Assembly: GCA_022508805.1 (NCBI GenBank)
Contig: JAFLUM010000011.1
Location: 1 to 53,602, forward strand
Source of the DNA: Oscillospiraceae bacterium
GTDB taxonomy: Bacteria; Bacillota; Clostridia; Oscillospirales; Acutalibacteraceae
DNA length: 53,602 nucleotides
Reading direction: 5' to 3'
Of the stretch, positions 3,597 to 44,142 are shown one piece after another. The first letter of the stretch is position 1, and each line of letters starts with the position of its first letter. Position numbers and translations under genes: made by a program. The notes beneath the pieces are model-generated. The model was not told the origin of the DNA and did no database searches. It worked only from the letters and a program-made list of their open reading frames with translations.

Positions 3597-3602
3597 AATA
3601 AT

Positions 3603-3775
3603 TAACGATTGAGGCGCGGCTAATATCAGTACCGCTTTTGAAACCGCCAAGGGTTTATGATAAAGCGTGAAAGGATTTGCCGCCGAAGAAAAATGTGATT
3701 TGGCAAGCATTTTTCTGGGTGCATTATTAAAAGTAATGCAACTGTCATCATTTTGATGGAGTGCTTTCGTATTTG
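3603..3775 (+). promoter_or_regulatory. Lysine riboswitch (L-box)
   Basis: The leader holds L-box blocks in the right order: GAGGCGCG near 3611, AGTA near 3629, AAGGGTTTATGA (3649), GTGAAAGGATT (3666), GCCGAAG (3682) and the closing GGAGTGCTTTCG (3758). L-boxes bind lysine and switch off lysine synthesis or uptake. Here it precedes asd, dapA and dapB, three early steps of diaminopimelate/lysine synthesis, and ends in an intrinsic terminator, so control is probably by premature termination when lysine is high. Confidence 0.9.
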
Positions 3776-7917: not shown

Positions 7918-8170
7918 AAAAAAAACGTCCCCTGTCAAAACAGAGGACGAAAAATTCGTGTTACCACCTCATATTCGCCGTTTTCTCACAAAAACGACCT
8001 CACCGAGTAACTGACATTACTCCGTACTGTAACGGGTACGCCCGACTTTTCCTACTTAATTCAAAAAAGCGGCTCAGCGATGTATTTCGCAAGTTCTGCG
8101 CACGCCCTCACACCAAACGGACGCTCTCTTTGCCGCAGAGGATTTGTTACTTCTTCGCGTCAATGCCTTT
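7918..8170 (-). promoter_or_regulatory. T-box leader of tyrS
   Basis: On the minus strand the invariant T-box sequence GGTGGTAACACG lies at about 7952-7965, and the terminator stem GTCCTCTGT...ACAGGGGAC with a T-run sits at about 7920-7950. Upstream are the long stem I region and a GCGTACCCG segment (about 8032-8042) that may hold the UAC tyrosine specifier codon. T-boxes sense uncharged tRNA and prevent termination, here presumably tRNA-Tyr. Confidence 0.9.
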
Positions 8171-8176
8171 AAAAGT

Positions 8177-39340: not shown

Positions 39341-39369
39341 TTGAAATAGGTAAAAAAATTTGGTATAAT
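39341..39369 (+). promoter_or_regulatory. Promoter of the interrupted tRNA-Leu locus
   Basis: TTGAAA (39341-39346), 17-bp spacer, TATAAT (39364-39369). The expected start is just before the tRNA 5' half at 39383. After integration this host promoter would read through the half tRNA into the element's complete tRNA-Leu. Confidence 0.85.
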
Positions 39370-39382
39370 CCTATCAATATCC

Positions 39383-39422
39383 GCGGATATGGTGGAATTG
39401 GCAGACACGCAAGATTTAGGAT
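39383..39422 (+). pseudogene. 5' half of host tRNA-Leu(UAG), broken in the anticodon loop
   Basis: The sequence starts with acceptor strand GCGGATA, continues through the D-arm and 5' anticodon stem CAAGA and stops in the loop TTTAGGA. The matching 3' half lies 4.68 kb away at 44089-44142. Joined, the two give a canonical tRNA-Leu: GCGGATA pairs with TATCCGC and CAAGA with TCTTG. Confidence 0.93.
39412..39422. repeat. attL core of the integrated element
   Basis: AGATTTAGGAT, identical to 44089-44099. It contains the whole 7-base anticodon loop (TTTAGGA) of the host tRNA-Leu, the usual overlap region for tyrosine integrases that use the anticodon-loop site. Confidence 0.85.
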
Positions 39423-39427
39423 AATAT

Positions 39428-39509
39428 GCACCTGTGGTGGAATGGCAGACACGTTGGTCTTAGGAGCCAATGCGAAAGCGTGGGGGTTCAAGTCCCCCTA
39501 GGTGCACCA
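39428..39509 (+). tRNA. tRNA-Leu(TAG) carried by the element
   Basis: A full 82-base tRNA with acceptor GCACCTG/TAGGTGC, long-type variable arm TGCGAAAGCG, T-arm GGGGG-TTCAAGT-CCCCC, encoded CCA and anticodon arm TTGGT-CTTAGGA-GCCAA, giving anticodon TAG. It decodes the same CUN codons as the broken host gene but differs in acceptor, anticodon and T stems. It begins 6 bases inside the element. With no promoter of its own in between, it would be expressed from the host promoter at 39341 and need 5' trimming, presumably by RNase P. Confidence 0.95.
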
Positions 39510-39518
39510 ACATTTGTG

Positions 39519-39565
39519 AGGACTTTTTAAGTAATTTTTTTGCTTAAAAAGTCCTTGTTTTTTTT
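39519..39565 (+). terminator. Terminator of the element tRNA-Leu
   Basis: A perfect 13-bp stem AGGACTTTTTAAG/CTTAAAAAGTCCT (39519-39531 with 39543-39555) followed by a run of eight T. It separates the tRNA from the recombinase gene. Confidence 0.92.
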
Positions 39566-39583
39566 GTTGCTTTTGCTTATAAT
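39555..39583 (+). promoter_or_regulatory. Promoter of tyrosine recombinase 1
   Basis: TTGTTT (39555-39560), 17-bp spacer, TATAAT (39578-39583). It overlaps the T-run of the preceding terminator and is followed directly by the repeat at 39592. Confidence 0.6.
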
Positions 39584-39591
39584 ATTTTTGT

Positions 39592-39606
39592 TAATCTAGC
39601 GTGTTA
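39592..39606 (+). repeat. 15-bp repeat TAATCTAGCGTGTTA, left copy
   Basis: Identical to 43951-43965. The first nine of the bases AATCTAGCG recur inverted as CGCTAGATT at the right attachment site (44085-44093). Likely a recombinase or excisionase binding site; it lies at the start of the recombinase transcript. Confidence 0.65.
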
Positions 39607-39670
39607 CTTTCTAGCAAAAAAGCAGAAAGGAAACACAAAAAAAATGAGAAATTACAGACGGAGAACACAA

Positions 39671-40606
39671 ATGGCAACACACGAAAAAACTTTAATAAAA
39701 GATGCGTATGCGTTTTTTGTAGTAGAAAAGAAAGCAGAAAACCTTTCACAAAGCACACTTGACACATACGACATACACATTAAAAATTTTATGGATACTA
39801 TGGAAATAAGCAATTTTTCCTGTGCCTTGCTAAATGAAAACAATGCTATGTATCTCGATTGGGTAGAAGATTTACAAACAGAACAAGGAAAGAAAGATGT
39901 TACAATAGCAAGTTATTGCAGGTCAGTCCGTGCCTTCTTGTATTGGTTACAAGATAACAGTTATATAGACCCCTTTTCTGTTAAAATCCCTAAATATCAA
40001 AAAACTATAAAGCAATGCTATTCAGCAGACGAATTATCAACCTTATTAAAAAAGCCTGCAAAAACTTGTTCGGAAGTGCAATATCAAACTTGGGTGTTTA
40101 TAAATTTAATATGTGCTACGGGTTTGCGGTTATCCTCTGCACTTAACTTAAAAGTCCGCGATATTAACATAAAAGAAAAGGCTTTATATGTTCAGCAGAC
40201 AAAAAATAACAAAGCACAGATTTTGTTCTTAAATGATAATATGCTTACAATTCTTAAAAAATATGTTGCCTTATTCGACCTAGAAACAGACGATTTCCTA
40301 TTTTGCACGGCTGAAAAAACACAATTAGCAAAAAGGACAATACAGGACAATGTAGCAACCTATAATAGAAAACTAGGTATAGAAAAAACAAGTATACACC
40401 TATTCCGTCATACCTATGCTAAAAACTACTATCAGCAAACAAAAGATATATATAGTCTGTGTCAAGTCCTTAATCATAGCAGTATAGCAGTTACAGAAAA
40501 CTATTTAAGAGATTTAGGCTTAACGCTTGCAAACGCTACGGCATACAATCCACAAGCCCTTTTTGTGCAGTCCGCAAAAAAGAAAAGACGAGGCAAAATG
40601 TCATAA
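39671..40606 (+). CDS. Tyrosine recombinase 1 (integrase)
   Basis: A 311-residue tyrosine recombinase with an N-terminal SAM-like core-binding domain (about 8-95) and a catalytic domain. The catalytic set is complete: R153 (ATGLRLSSALNL), a lysine near 178-181, H243 and R246 (HLFRH), H269 (LNHSS) and Y278 (TENYL). ATG 39671 is chosen for the GGAGA site six bases upstream; ATG 39644 gives 9 more residues. Compact XerC/D-like architecture without the arm-binding domain of lambda-type integrases. It is closest to attL and is the leading candidate for integration into the tRNA. Confidence 0.93.
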   Translation: MATHEKTLIKDAYAFFVVEKKAENLSQSTLDTYDIHIKNFMDTMEISNFSCALLNENNAMYLDWVEDLQTEQGKKDVTIASYCRSVRAFLYWLQDNSYIDPFSVKIPKYQKTIKQCYSADELSTLLKKPAKTCSEVQYQTWVFINLICATGLRLSSALNLKVRDINIKEKALYVQQTKNNKAQILFLNDNMLTILKKYVALFDLETDDFLFCTAEKTQLAKRTIQDNVATYNRKLGIEKTSIHLFRHTYAKNYYQQTKDIYSLCQVLNHSSIAVTENYLRDLGLTLANATAYNPQALFVQSAKKKRRGKMS

Positions 40607-40610
40607 ATAT

Positions 40611-40636
40611 AACCGCCCAAACAGGGCGGTTTTTTC
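40611..40636 (+). terminator. Terminator after recombinase 1
   Basis: Stem ACCGCCC/GGGCGGT with an AAACA loop and six T, 5 bases after the stop codon. Confidence 0.9.
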
Positions 40637-40654
40637 ATAGCCTAAAGCCTTTTA

Positions 40655-40724
40655 AAAGTTGCTTAAGGGGGTCGAGGGGGGACCGCTTGCGGTGGGTTCC
40701 CTATTATTACCCTTAAGCAACTTT
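40655..40724 (+). other. Putative rolling-circle origin with CRESS-type nonanucleotide
   Basis: A perfect 15-bp inverted repeat (40655-40669 with 40710-40724, core TTGCTTAAGGG) encloses a 40-base loop with small G-rich hairpins. The loop ends in TATTATTAC (40702-40710), which matches the NANTATTAC nonanucleotide nicked by geminivirus and circovirus Reps between bases 7 and 8. As in geminiviruses, its last base enters the right arm. Iterons begin inside the right arm. A CRESS-type rep gene follows on the same strand. The origin role is inferred. Confidence 0.8.
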
Positions 40725-40894
40725 AGTAGTCAAGAATTTTACAAGATAGTTATTTGAAGAAAAACAATTAACTATCTAAAAATTTTGACTACTGCAACTT
40801 TAGTAGTCAAATAGTCAAAATGCTATATTTACAAATAATTATCAAAAAAAACAACAGTTCACTTTAGTAGTCAAAATAACTTTAGTAGTCAAAA
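40719..40894 (+). repeat. Iteron array, probable Rep-binding sites
   Basis: Four direct copies of ACTTTAGTAGTCAA start at 40720, 40797, 40861 and 40879, and one inverted partial copy TTGACTACT lies at 40785-40793. The first copy overlaps the origin stem. Spacing is irregular and the copies are not separated by uniform spacers. A weak extra match, TTTAGTAGT, is at 43860. Confidence 0.85.
40725..40793. repeat. Long imperfect palindrome next to the nonanucleotide stem
   Basis: AGTAGTCAA-G-AATTTT on the left pairs with AAAATTTTGACTACT on the right, and an inner perfect 9-bp stem AGATAGTTA/TAACTATCT (40744-40752 with 40769-40777) has a 16-base loop. It could be a second origin structure such as a lagging-strand initiation site. 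Confidence 0.65.
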
Positions 40895-40905
40895 TTTTTG
40901 ATGTA

Positions 40906-40935
40906 TTGATAACTTAATAAAGAATGTTATATAAT
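40906..40935 (+). promoter_or_regulatory. Promoter of the rep leader
   Basis: TTGATA (40906-40911), 18-bp spacer, TATAAT (40930-40935), right after the last iteron, so Rep bound to iterons could repress it. Transcription would start about 220 bases ahead of the proposed rep start. Confidence 0.65.
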
Positions 40936-40946
40936 TCATTCAAGCA

Positions 40947-41023
40947 CAAAAAAAAGACCGTTGGCGAAACGGTCTGAGACAATAAAGATAAAAAAGTTAG
41001 GGGTCAAAAGGCGATTTGACTAT
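40947..41023 (-). ncRNA. Candidate antisense RNA against the rep leader
   Basis: On the minus strand a TTGATT (41051-41056) and TATAAA (41030-41035) pair with a 15-bp spacer could start a transcript near 41023 that ends at a hairpin AGACCGTT/AACGGTCT followed by eight T (40947-40975). The RNA of about 75 bases would be fully complementary to 40981-41012 and nearly so to the rep start at 41174-41205. Proposed from sequence only. Confidence 0.5.
40981..41012 (+). repeat. Partial duplicate of the rep start region in the leader
   Basis: 32 bases match 41174-41205 at 29 positions. The copy encodes NKDKKVRGQKAI and a stop; the rep copy encodes NKDKKIRGQKAF. It lies within the proposed antisense RNA. 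Confidence 0.75.
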
Positions 41024-41094
41024 ATTTATTTTATACTACAGAAAAATTAAAATCAATAGATAAATATATAAATATATTCAAACGAAAACTTTTG

Positions 41095-41128
41095 ACACTT
41101 GCTTATTCTTTCGGCAAGTGTTTTTTTT
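41095..41128 (+). terminator. Terminator/attenuator in the rep leader
   Basis: A perfect 8-bp stem ACACTTGC/GCAAGTGT (41095-41102 with 41114-41121) with an 11-base loop and eight T, located after the rep promoter and before the rep coding region. Its position suggests control of rep by premature termination. Confidence 0.75.
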
Positions 41129-41164
41129 GTTGCTAAAAAAAATTATAAGAAAGGCTGTGATTTA

Positions 41165-42217
41165 ATCAACGAAAATAAAGATAAAAAAATTAGGGGGCAA
41201 AAAGCTTTTTTAACAGTTAACAACCCCCAAAAGCATAACTATTTAACAAATAGTCCCGAAGATATGAAAGCGGTATATTTTCAAAAAGCACTAAACCAAT
41301 GGGGTAGCATAATATATATGTGTTGCACAAAAGAAAAAGGCAAAAAAGGTACAGTACACGACCACTTGTATATACACTTTGAAAGGCAAGTATATATAAC
41401 AAGTCTTCAAAAGGTATTTCCCCATTGTGACATAGAATTTCACAACGGCAGTGATGAAGATAACCGCAACTATATTTTTAAACAAGGTGAAAAATACGAA
41501 AACGATAAGGCTGAAACCCGTATTGACGGCTTTCAATTTGAATGGGGCGAAATGGAAAAGTTTAGACAGAATCAAGGCAAAAGGAACGATTTAGAAGAAT
41601 TAAGAACGCTTATACTACAAGGAAAAAGCAATGCTGAAATTTACAATTACAATGCAAATTATTTAAAATATGCTACCTACATAGACAAAATAAGATTAGA
41701 CCTCATACAAGACAAATACAAAAAAGAAAATAGGTTCTTAAAGGTTGTCTACCAAACAGGCGAAACAGGTACAGGAAAAACAAGAAGTGTAATGGAAAGT
41801 TACGGGTATGAAAATGTTTATCGTGTTACGGACTACTCCCACCCTTTCGATAGTTATAATCTTCAAGACACTATCATTTTTGAAGAATTTAGAAGCAGTT
41901 TAAAAGCAGAGCAGATGTTAAATTATTTAGACCTATACCCTGTTGATTTACCTTCCCGTTATGCCAACAAGGTTGCTTGTTATCATAATGTTTACATTAA
42001 CACGAACATTCCACTACAAGAACAGTTTAAAAACATTCAAGAGCAACAACCGCAAACTTGGCAAGCCTTCTTAAGAAGGCTTGACGAAATCCGTGTTTTT
42101 GAAAATAACGAAATCTATGTTTATAAACAATATAGGAAACAAGACGGCACATTTGATTTTTTAAGCAATAACGGGTTACTCTATTTTGATAGGTTTAATC
42201 CAATACAAGCACAGTAA
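41165..42217 (+). CDS. rep: CRESS-DNA-virus-like replication initiator (HUH endonuclease + SF3 helicase)
   Basis: A 350-residue Rep with both domains of eukaryotic CRESS-DNA virus Reps. HUH motifs: I FLTVNNP (15-21), II HDH (65-67), III YIFK with nicking Tyr103. Superfamily 3 helicase: Walker A GETGTGKT (199-206), Walker B TIIFEEF (236-242), motif C YINTN (277-281). It should nick the nearby origin and unwind DNA for rolling-circle replication. No AUG, GUG or usable UUG exists near the N-terminus; the only in-frame UUG (41099) lies inside the leader terminator. AUC at 41165, spaced after AGAAAGG, is the proposed start. The stop lies in its own terminator. Confidence 0.9.
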   Translation: MNENKDKKIRGQKAFLTVNNPQKHNYLTNSPEDMKAVYFQKALNQWGSIIYMCCTKEKGKKGTVHDHLYIHFERQVYITSLQKVFPHCDIEFHNGSDEDNRNYIFKQGEKYENDKAETRIDGFQFEWGEMEKFRQNQGKRNDLEELRTLILQGKSNAEIYNYNANYLKYATYIDKIRLDLIQDKYKKENRFLKVVYQTGETGTGKTRSVMESYGYENVYRVTDYSHPFDSYNLQDTIIFEEFRSSLKAEQMLNYLDLYPVDLPSRYANKVACYHNVYINTNIPLQEQFKNIQEQQPQTWQAFLRRLDEIRVFENNEIYVYKQYRKQDGTFDFLSNNGLLYFDRFNPIQAQ

Positions 42218-42232
42218 TGTGCTTGTTTTTTT
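42205..42232 (+). terminator. Terminator overlapping the rep stop codon
   Basis: Stem ACAAGCACA/TGTGCTTGT (42205-42213 with 42218-42226) with loop GTAA holding the TAA stop, followed by T7. Confidence 0.88.
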
Positions 42233-42849
42233 ATGCTTATTATTCCTATCCCCCGTGTTGTAAAAGTAGCACATATGTGCTCCGGCACATATGTGCTACT
42301 CTAATAAGCATAAGACAGACAGAGCGGTTAGGGCAACAAAAACAGCGTGTTTTTGTTGGACTAAACGGGGATGTCTTGCATTTTGGAAATTTTAATTATA
42401 AAATCAAAGTATAAAAGTTTTAATAGAATATTGTGCTCTCATTGAACAGAGCCATAGGCAAAAGCCTATGAAGTTATTTAAAGTGTTTCTTAAGTGAAAT
42501 ATTAGATTGCAAGTTTCAGAATTTTTAGCAATTAAAACATTAAAATGAAGTTATTTAATACCTTTTTCAAGGTCAAAAGTAAAGTGTTACAAAGTCAAGG
42601 ACTACAAAAAATTAGGCTTTGGGCTACATAATTTTTATTAAAGGTATCAAGTATACCATTATTTATATAGAGAAAAATTATAATTTAATGAAAAAAATGG
42701 AACGGGAAACCATTAGAAAAAAATCCTATCTGTACTTAACAAATTTTTACAAAAAAATAAGTAGTAGATATGTATTAAAAACTATCGTTTTTAACACATA
42801 TGTGCTACCTATTAAAAAAGGCTGACAATAATTTTAAGGGGGTGATTTA
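42233..42849. other. 617-bp stretch of the element without a supported gene
   Basis: No open frame here has a ribosome site or recognisable product. It contains the double palindrome at 42265-42300, a CATAGGC/GCCTATG hairpin (42453-42470), a 14-bp direct repeat ATGAAGTTATTTAA (42468-42481 and 42545-42558) and a third copy of the palindrome half-site at 42795. Likely functions are a lagging-strand origin, a recombination site or regulatory RNA. Confidence 0.5.
42265..42300. repeat. 15-bp inverted repeat made of two nested palindromes
   Basis: AGTAGCACATATGTG and CACATATGTGCTACT flank CTCCGG. Each arm is itself close to the palindrome AGCACATATGTGCT. A single copy of the half-site (CACATATGTGCTAC) recurs at 42795-42808, about 40 bases before recombinase 2. 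Confidence 0.75.
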
Positions 42850-43776
42850 ATTAAAACATTACAACAGCAAGTTAAAACGAACCTGAATGGCAAAAGAGCA
42901 ATGGGCGAAAGTAGGCACAATGCAAAAATAGAACTTAAAGAAAAGATGGGCGAAGATTACCGCTTTGGTATGTCGGTTGATACTATACATAGTTATAAAA
43001 CATTTGATATATATACAGAGCATTGTAACCGCTTTGTCGAGTGGTGCATTAACGAAAAAGGTGTAAATAAATATTCTAGCCTAAACAATATAAAGCAATA
43101 TGCAAAAGAATATTTACAAGCAAGAGAAGAAAAAGGGTTAAGCCTTTATACTTTAAAGTCGGAAAAATCTGCATTAGGCAAGTTGTACGGGGAAACAATA
43201 GATTATAAATTTCAAAAGCCTAGAACTACAAAAGAAATCACAAGGTCAAGAAACGAGGTCAAAAACGATAAGCATTTTTCTGTAGAAAAAAATCAAGACC
43301 TTGTTGACATTTGCCGAGCAACAGGCGGTCGCAGAGAAGATATAGAAAAACTAACAAAAGACTGCTTTTTTACTGACAAAAACGGTCAAATGTGGGTTCG
43401 ATTTGAACAGAGCAAGGGCGGTCGTGATAGAATTGCACCCGTCTTGCCTGAATATCAAGCAAGAGTGCAGATGATATTAGAAACAAGAGAACCAAACACC
43501 CCCCTATTTAGCAACATTCACGGAGCGGCGGATATTCACTCATTCCGCCGTGAGTATGCACAAGAACTGTATAAAGCCGTATGTAATAATGATACTTTAA
43601 AAGAAAAAATATTAAGCGAATATCCCGCAAGAAATGAGCCAAATATAAAGGGTGATACATACCATAGCCACGATAAAGAAAATCAGTTTAAAGGTGATAG
43701 AGATAATATTTATATTGTATCGGAAGCACTCGGACACAACAGGCTAGAAGTATCTGTAAATCACTACTTAAAATAA
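42850..43776 (+). CDS. Tyrosine recombinase 2
   Basis: A 308-residue recombinase with an N-terminal core-binding domain (about 40-118) and catalytic residues R161 (TGGRREDI), K189, H230 and R233 (HSFR), H296 (LGHN) and Y306 (NHYL). A stretch of about 45 residues separates HSFR from LGHN, longer than in recombinase 1. The proposed start is AUU at 42850, because AAGGGGGTGATTT, almost perfectly complementary to the 16S rRNA 3' end, precedes it and the frame codes on without AUG until 42901, which has no ribosome site. Confidence 0.88.
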   Translation: MKTLQQQVKTNLNGKRAMGESRHNAKIELKEKMGEDYRFGMSVDTIHSYKTFDIYTEHCNRFVEWCINEKGVNKYSSLNNIKQYAKEYLQAREEKGLSLYTLKSEKSALGKLYGETIDYKFQKPRTTKEITRSRNEVKNDKHFSVEKNQDLVDICRATGGRREDIEKLTKDCFFTDKNGQMWVRFEQSKGGRDRIAPVLPEYQARVQMILETREPNTPLFSNIHGAADIHSFRREYAQELYKAVCNNDTLKEKILSEYPARNEPNIKGDTYHSHDKENQFKGDRDNIYIVSEALGHNRLEVSVNHYLK

Positions 43777-43780
43777 AAAG

Positions 43781-43825
43781 CAGATAATTAACTGAAAATA
43801 AAAACAGTTAGTTATCTGTTTTTTT
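43781..43825 (+). terminator. Terminator of recombinase 2
   Basis: Stem CAGATAATTAACTG/CAGTTAGTTATCTG (43781-43794 with 43805-43818, one G-U-type mismatch) followed by seven T. Confidence 0.88.
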
Positions 43826-43925
43826 GCTATTTCTACGGCAGAATGATTTTTAAATCCTTTTTAGTAGTAAATATTCATCAGCAAAAATAAAAACAATTAT
43901 ACAGAAATTTTTGTTAAAATCCCTA

Positions 43926-43954
43926 TTGAAATAATAGCATATATGTGTTATAAT
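43926..43954 (+). promoter_or_regulatory. Right-end promoter facing out of the element
   Basis: TTGAAA (43926-43931), 17-bp spacer, TATAAT (43949-43954). No gene follows before the element's end. Integrated, it reads into the tRNA 3' half; in a circle it would read across the attachment site into the element tRNA-Leu about 140 bases away. Confidence 0.7.
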
Positions 43955-43965
43955 CTAGCGTGTTA
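43951..43965 (+). repeat. 15-bp repeat TAATCTAGCGTGTTA, right copy
   Basis: Identical to 39592-39606; here it overlaps the -10 of the right-end promoter, so a protein bound to it should block transcription. Confidence 0.65.
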
Positions 43966-43973
43966 GAGGCATA

Positions 43974-44011
43974 TTTTACAAGTTAAATTTTAAATTTTTA
44001 ACCTTGTAAAA
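43974..44011. repeat. Hairpin near the right end of the element
   Basis: Perfect 9-bp arms TTTTACAAG/CTTGTAAAA with further pairing GTTAAA/TTTAAC inside. No T-run follows on either strand, so it is not an obvious terminator. Confidence 0.5.
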
Positions 44012-44088
44012 AGTGCTAAAAACCCTTATATATCAACGAAAGTTAATATGTTAGATTACTTAAATATTATGTGTTCTGCATTTTCGCT

Positions 44089-44099
44089 AGATTTAGGAT
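44089..44099. repeat. attR core of the integrated element
   Basis: AGATTTAGGAT, identical to the left copy at 39412. Just outside it on the element side lies CGCTAGATT, an inverted match to the 15-bp repeats. Confidence 0.85.
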
Positions 44100-44142
44100 C
44101 TTGTGCGAAAGCGTGCAGGTTCAAGTCCTGTTATCCGCACCA
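44089..44142 (+). pseudogene. 3' half of host tRNA-Leu(UAG)
   Basis: Continues the broken tRNA from the anticodon loop: stem TCTTG, variable arm TGCGAAAGCG, T-arm GCAGG-TTCAAGT-CCTGT, acceptor TATCCGC and encoded CCA. It pairs with the 5' half at 39383 in acceptor and anticodon stems. The original gene terminator follows. Confidence 0.93.

Follow-up and report, generated by a model that had tools for sequence, protein, structure and literature searches.

The window, by which we mean the whole stretch of 53,602 nucleotides that was analyzed, carries a mobile element of 4,677 bp (39423–44099) that interrupts the host tRNA-Leu(UAG) gene at the anticodon loop; the element and all of the features at its locus lie on the forward strand. 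Its G+C content is 32.4%, against 41–43% in the flanks. Upstream, a promoter-like site, TTGAAA-17-TATAAT (39341–39369), with 11 of 12 matches, ends 13 bases before the 5′ end of the host tRNA. The 5′ half of the gene (39383–39422) comprises its first 40 bases and terminates with an 11-bp core, AGATTTAGGAT (39412–39422), in the anticodon stem-loop. A second copy of this core forms the right junction (44089–44099) and is followed, about 4.7 kb downstream of the 5′ half, by the 3′ half (44100–44142), in which CCA is encoded. When the host flanks were joined at the core, a perfect and complete tRNA-Leu(tag) of 83 nt was obtained. As the sequence stands, no tRNA is predicted at the right junction, and the sole tRNA predicted at the left junction is the element's own, the host tRNA being left unrestored at both because the core is only 11 bp long. 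Canonical 3′-end repair of the target tRNA was therefore rejected.

The element's own tRNA is a complete tRNA-Leu(UAG) with an encoded CCA (39428–39509), which starts five bases past the boundary between core and element. An earlier note, made from the sequence alone, had proposed a complete tRNA of the same anticodon just inside the element, and two programs agree on exactly this interval, with ARAGORN reading the anticodon as TAG and the Rfam tRNA model scoring 54.3 bits (E = 5.5e-9) over 71 of 71 model positions. As the note also held, the gene is no simple duplicate: its identity to the rejoined host tRNA is 73.5%, and its anticodon stem is unlike that of the host, a difference that may keep the integrase from targeting the element's own tRNA. 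The note further placed this tRNA behind the host promoter and ahead of a strong terminator. A terminator-like stem-loop of 19 pairs followed by a T run (39516–39558) lies behind the tRNA and such stems are in excess in the region (9 vs. 2.7, SD 1.7, in shuffles). The upstream site is promoter-like, and its class shows no excess over shuffled sequence (25 vs. 20.1, SD 5.4).

Proteins and relatives of the element

Three open reading frames (ORFs) of the element exceed 100 aa. The first encodes a tyrosine recombinase of 320 aa (39644–40606; PF00589, 2.6e-27), in which we take TGLR, HLFR, NHS, and a late Y (in ENYLR) to be the catalytic motifs; this enzyme probably makes the insertion into tRNA-Leu(UAG). 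The second encodes a CRESS-type Rep of 372 aa (41099–42217; PF02407, Viral_Rep, 2e-8), whose HDH (HxH), YIFK (YxxK), GETGTGKT (Walker A), and FEE (Walker B–like) fit the HUH nuclease and SF3 helicase motifs. Its seven matches in the PDB are weak (E from 0.00046 to 0.05): five are named replication-associated protein, replicase-associated protein, or Rep helicase, and the remaining two, which align to another part of the protein, are designed enzymes. In a plasmid collection searched by tblastn, the Rep of Bifidobacterium p4M was the only relative (32.7% identity). The third ORF encodes a second, divergent tyrosine recombinase–like protein of 291 aa (42901–43776), with 26.0 bits for PF00589 (cut-off 27.1) and 1.7e-10 for phrog_1.

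A 15-nt exact direct repeat, TAATCTAGCGTGTTA, occurs on either side of the attachment core, some way from it (39592–39606 and 43951–43965). The two copies are candidate arm-type integrase sites and, if so, would place the tRNA between the core and one arm. Near the right end lies another promoter-like site (43926–43954), which in the excised circle would stand 150 bp ahead of the element tRNA. Scans of viral contigs yielded no relatives of the Rep or the integrase, and a blastn search of phages with the whole element gave 194 records, among which the 20 listed matches cover 1–2% of the query, at the tRNA. With a length of 4.7 kb and two tyrosine recombinases and a Rep as its ORFs over 100 aa, the carrier does not look like a phage, and its gene content suggests a plasmid-like element.

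A search of genome contigs with the integrase gave two relatives, each 92% identical, in HAN080 (L088, on the same contig as G033) and in Ruminococcus sp. HAN024 (L089). In HAN024, the whole element, with its genes in the same order, lies between two cores 4,648 bp apart and occupies the tRNA-Leu(UAG) gene of a second species, which is split and has a different acceptor stem. In HAN080, the tRNA and the recombinase are present, and the contig ends after the recombinase. We counted both as one host lineage because they are 99.06% alike over their 1,599 shared bases. The association of tRNA, recombinase, and Rep that the earlier note anticipated thus recurs in full in HAN024 and, for the tRNA and recombinase, in HAN080. 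The HAN024 element also carries TAATCTAGCGTGTTA exactly twice, an identical right-end promoter-like site, a terminator-like stem-loop that differs at its last base alone, and a Rep that matches PF02407 with 26.5 bits; its counterpart of the second recombinase-like protein has no Pfam match.

The element tRNAs of the window and HAN024 differ at 8 of 82 positions. Six of these differences form three compensated pairs (27-43, 29-41, and 45-52), and the other two fall in loops; all 22 pairs of the tRNA are kept, which random substitutions manage in 828 of 100,000 trials. These compensated changes suggest that the element tRNA is under selection. The three protein genes of the element look to be under purifying selection, with dN of 0.061, 0.143, and 0.140 vs. 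dS of 0.65, 1.09, and 0.62. In five neighboring host genes dS is 1.0, 1.5, 1.8, 2.6, and 2.8. These values only hint that the element moved between hosts after their split, because the ranges of element and host touch and the host values are near saturation.

More distant relatives include elements that repair their target. Among 98 genomes, a search with the Rep gave six loci besides the window's (37–45% identity). Three of them have an intact target tRNA and a direct repeat that extends from its anticodon loop through its 3′ end, measuring 57 nt in tRNA-Leu(CAA) (L042) and 45 nt each in tRNA-Pro (L046) and tRNA-Trp (L047); no further tRNA was found in the 12–14 kb examined at these loci. In the stretches examined, a fourth locus (L044) has no repeat and the other two (L043 and L045) have no tRNA. 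The integrase has six distant relatives. At one of them (L055, 36%), a repeat covers 62 nt of tRNA-Leu(CAG) and begins at the tRNA position where AGATTTAGGAT begins in the window; within the stretches examined, three (L056, L086, and L087) show no such repeat and two (L057 and L058) no tRNA. Judging from these few cases, repair seems to be the usual habit and replacement the derived state. At about 4042–4271 of L055, two tRNA-Leu 5′ fragments, each with the same flanking repeat, lie ahead of the intact tRNA-Leu(CAG).

Leucine tRNAs in the genome and across the genus

The window's genome is a draft assembly of 30 contigs that is 99% complete. A genome-wide tRNA search gave 32 matches, and ARAGORN was used for naming on 32 of 34 loci, the other two being stretches of the window. 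The leucine tRNAs found are CAG, TAA, CAA, and GAG, besides the element's TAG. Other intact host UAG tRNAs would have spoken against the earlier note, and none was found in this 30-contig draft, from which another copy could be missing. Three tRNA matches at contig ends span 53–55 bases, with no room for a long variable arm, and are probably not tRNA-Leu. A weak match of 84 bases is a tRNA-Thr truncated in the T arm, which is followed after about 60 bases by an intact tRNA-Thr(CGT) that shares its 5′ sequence (L033 1499–1685; G000:C26, about 128261–128447), perhaps as the trace of another insertion. Elsewhere in the window, we noted a lysine riboswitch (3601–3774, forward strand) and a T-box leader (7940–8172, reverse strand), both above the gathering score, and a tRNA cut by the contig end (1–62, reverse strand, 43.5 bits).

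The earlier note had argued that the UAG tRNA reads all CUN codons, which is overstated, the genome also having GAG and CAG tRNAs for leucine. Given these two, established decoding rules leave CUA as the single codon that loses its cognate tRNA. Twenty ORFs of the window, chosen as host genes, have 15 CTA among 8,794 codons; the genes of the element have 13 among 986, so the tRNA could serve the element as well. Loss of the UAG tRNA may be lethal.

Across the genus, a strict pattern for the 5′ half of the UAG gene matched 27 of 39 genomes, once in each. The gene is intact in 25 of them, and in the other two, the window's genome and G033, it is split and accompanied by the element tRNA; the core AGATTTAGGAT is present in all 27 UAG genes. 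The remaining 12 genomes were searched with up to three mismatches, and ARAGORN was then run on all 23 loci; G001, G002, and G006 proved to have an intact UAG gene, G032 a split one accompanied by a replacement, and eight genomes GAG or CAG tRNAs alone. The gene is thus intact in 28 of the 39 genomes and split with a replacement in three, and no split gene without a replacement was found among the 39. None of the 28 element-free loci (1.7–3 kb per locus) has a second leucine tRNA. The eight genomes that yielded no UAG tRNA at up to three mismatches include two that are 93% and 97% complete. Either these are losses of assembly or pattern, or the UAG tRNA is dispensable in the genus, and unless they are such losses they count against its essentiality.

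Serine recombinases at leucine tRNAs

A different element, of 12,502 bp (G032:C12 215680–228183; L114 and L115), interrupts the host tRNA-Leu(UAG) of G032 at the same loop and contains a complete UAG tRNA that starts after 71 bases. When the flanks were rejoined, a perfect tRNA was obtained. Neither the window's Rep (at a threshold of E 1e-5) nor its integrase (at E 1e-20) has a match in this genome. In register, the two junctions share TT alone, and such a short shared junction suits a serine recombinase. The element encodes a serine recombinase of 544 aa (PF00239, PF07508, and PF13408), and Pfam detected no tyrosine recombinase in its 12 ORFs of at least 80 aa. This serine recombinase, whose gene lies mid-element, is the probable agent of the insertion. 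The tRNA of the element is 80.5% identical to that of its host and 89.7% identical to the UAG tRNAs of G001 and G002.

Relatives of this serine recombinase are present in eight other genomes of 395 (E of 1e-130 or better, 43–63% identity), and all eight stretches (11–20 kb) contain a complete tRNA-Leu, either UAG or CAG. In five of them (G106, G260, G565, G267, and G569; L156–L159, L162, L164, and L165), a tRNA-Leu 5′ half that ends in the anticodon loop lies 69–146 bases ahead of the complete gene; none was found in the stretches examined of G180, G511, and G087. The matching 3′ half is present in G106 and G267 and was not found in the examined stretches of G260, G565, and G569. Rejoined, the two halves in G267 give a perfect tRNA-Leu(CAG), which is 73.6% identical to the adjoining complete tRNA. 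When the half and the 5′ part of the complete gene were compared, they were 94.7% alike in G260 and identical in G106, G565, and G569, and in G106 the identity extends over the whole gene; in such a case the complete gene could simply be a copy. The junctions share six bases in G106 and seven in G267. On these comparisons, G032 and G267 stand out as the two strong further cases of replacement. At about 11480–11770 of L162, two successive tRNA-Leu 5′ halves precede a single intact tRNA-Leu(CAG), such as repeated insertion into the same tRNA might leave.

A family-wide pattern search for further cases matched 24 of the 395 genomes. It excluded the window's element by design, recovered G033 as a positive control, and missed G032 by one base; the other 23 genomes were judged from the matched letters to be chance or tandem tRNAs. 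In one locus (L133, G123:C25), a tRNA-Leu(GAG) truncated in the T loop stands immediately before an intact tRNA-Leu(GAG) that has the same 5′ sequence.

Probable replacement of a host tRNA

We consider it very likely that the element breaks the host tRNA-Leu(UAG) gene and supplies a substitute tRNA behind a captured host promoter. The central idea of the earlier note, that the element swaps its target tRNA rather than repairing it, is supported by the split gene, the lack of a rebuilt junction, the finding of no other UAG tRNA in the draft assembly, and the recurrence in HAN024. In the mechanism that we propose, the tyrosine recombinase would integrate the 4.7-kb plasmid-like element into the anticodon loop of the tRNA-Leu(UAG) gene, and the host tRNA promoter would read through the orphaned 5′ half into the element tRNA. 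RNase P and the encoded CCA end would then yield a mature tRNA, which LeuRS would charge and which would take over CUA decoding, making integration survivable and the host dependent on the element tRNA. In the excised circle, the promoter-like site at 43926–43954 would drive this tRNA. With neither half damaged, precise excision would give the host its gene back, so the dependence would act against decay of the element, not against its clean excision. Joining of the split host tRNA in trans was rejected, there being no evidence for it and no need of it.

Could the second tRNA belong to the host? Its position, on the host side of the recombinase and after a host promoter-like site, would suit a tandem gene left by an old duplication beside which the element had landed, and the earlier note had itself named such a tandem as the danger to its reading. 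However, the tRNA stands between the two copies of the core, it accompanies the recombinase and Rep in another host lineage, and the 28 element-free loci examined in the genus are uniformly without a second leucine tRNA, which makes a host origin very improbable. We give even less credence to an artefact in which an excised circle or a chimeric contig accounts for the element's place in the tRNA. The source is a draft, but the assemblies of HAN080 and HAN024 also contain the left junction and both junctions, respectively, in host tRNAs whose sequences are unlike the window's.

A different origin for the arrangement would be that the tRNA is cargo that translates the element's own CTA-rich genes, the match in isotype being secondary. 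The codon counts given above agree with this, yet the isotype is the one destroyed, the gene lies right at the junction, the three repairing Rep relatives have no further tRNA in 12–14 kb, and a different element in G032 shows the same isotype match; we regard the cargo explanation as quite unlikely. We also think it unlikely, if slightly less so, that the host UAG tRNA is dispensable, with CAG and GAG reading CUN well enough and the element tRNA a bystander. The eight genus genomes that yielded GAG or CAG tRNAs and no UAG speak for this possibility, whereas the distribution in the genus, where every split gene found has a replacement, and the compensated changes in the element tRNA, which point to selection on it, speak against it.

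Replacement rather than repair of a tRNA is already known as a principle from phages. The usual rule is that an intact tRNA is reconstituted on integration (PMC8371274). tRNA-dependent lysogeny has been proven by experiment in mycobacteriophages, and further actinobacteriophages are listed by Guerrero-Bustamante and Hatfull (2024), with Fionnbharth, LeBron, and Gaia as examples and the Lactobacillus prophage Lj965 as a likely case outside actinobacteriophages, in a survey that covered phages with tyrosine integrases only (PMC10865867). The window's element shares with this system a tyrosine integrase, the destruction of a host tRNA, and the carriage of a tRNA of the same isotype, and its core of 11 bp compares with 8–17 bp in the phages (Table 2, PMC10865867). 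Several of the features by which tRNA-dependent integration is recognized are found here: a tyrosine integrase, a core in the host tRNA that is too short to rebuild it, and no other UAG copy in the 30-contig assembly. A like contrast between replacing and repairing is described for the Gaia and Omega phages at tRNA-Leu-CAA (PMC10865867). The carriers described there are temperate phages, whereas the carrier here is 4.7 kb long and encodes a CRESS-type Rep. The tRNA of Fionnbharth has a promoter to itself and overlaps a gene of the opposite strand (PMC10865867), whereas here the tRNA is at the junction behind a host promoter-like site.

Outside these phages, an insert in Sinorhizobium meliloti supplies an isoacceptor tRNA for an inactivated tRNA gene (PMC11476347); it is phage-related and in an alphaproteobacterium, and the accessible text makes no mention of a CRESS Rep, in contrast to the element described here. 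The accessible part of another report describes isoacceptor replacement as absent in other prophages (PMC12429752), and a mycobacterial satellite with a serine integrase is reported to use no tRNA gene (PMC10654092). p4M-like Reps have been placed in pCRESS1-3, groups of plasmids that lack capsid genes and are for the most part integrated (Kazlauskas et al. 2019, PMC6668415). With these the window's element shares a viral-type Rep, nuclease and helicase motifs, site-specific integration, and, among its ORFs over 100 aa, the lack of a capsid gene, and its Rep has the 32.7% match to that of p4M. The word "tRNA" is absent from the main text of that paper. Of the six distant Rep relatives examined here, three rebuild their target tRNA, whereas the window's element appears to replace it. 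A search by title and abstract opening, in which subscription papers were mostly outside coverage, found among the papers listed none on tRNA replacement by elements with a CRESS-type Rep or a serine recombinase. What appears to be new is the plasmid-like carrier with a CRESS-type Rep and the position of the tRNA at the junction.

Taken together, these findings lead us to favor, by a modest measure, the broader view that non-phage elements of this bacterial order have repeatedly adopted the replacement of a leucine tRNA as their strategy. This strategy would have arisen at least twice, once with a tyrosine recombinase and a CRESS-type Rep and once with large serine recombinases, whose two to seven shared junction bases are unable to rebuild a tRNA, and the elements would capture the host promoter and keep the host dependent while they stay. 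If this is true, tRNA-dependent integration reaches beyond phages to include plasmid-like elements and, probably, a second class of recombinase, and the serine recombinase cases make tRNA replacement more than a curiosity. It would also explain how elements with a very short core can use tRNA genes without killing the host. Programs that find islands by seeking a regenerated tRNA would miss such elements, which orphaned tRNA halves beside intact tRNAs, used as a search signature, would find. Site-specific integration could then exchange host tRNAs for foreign ones, which would be a route for the turnover of tRNA genes.
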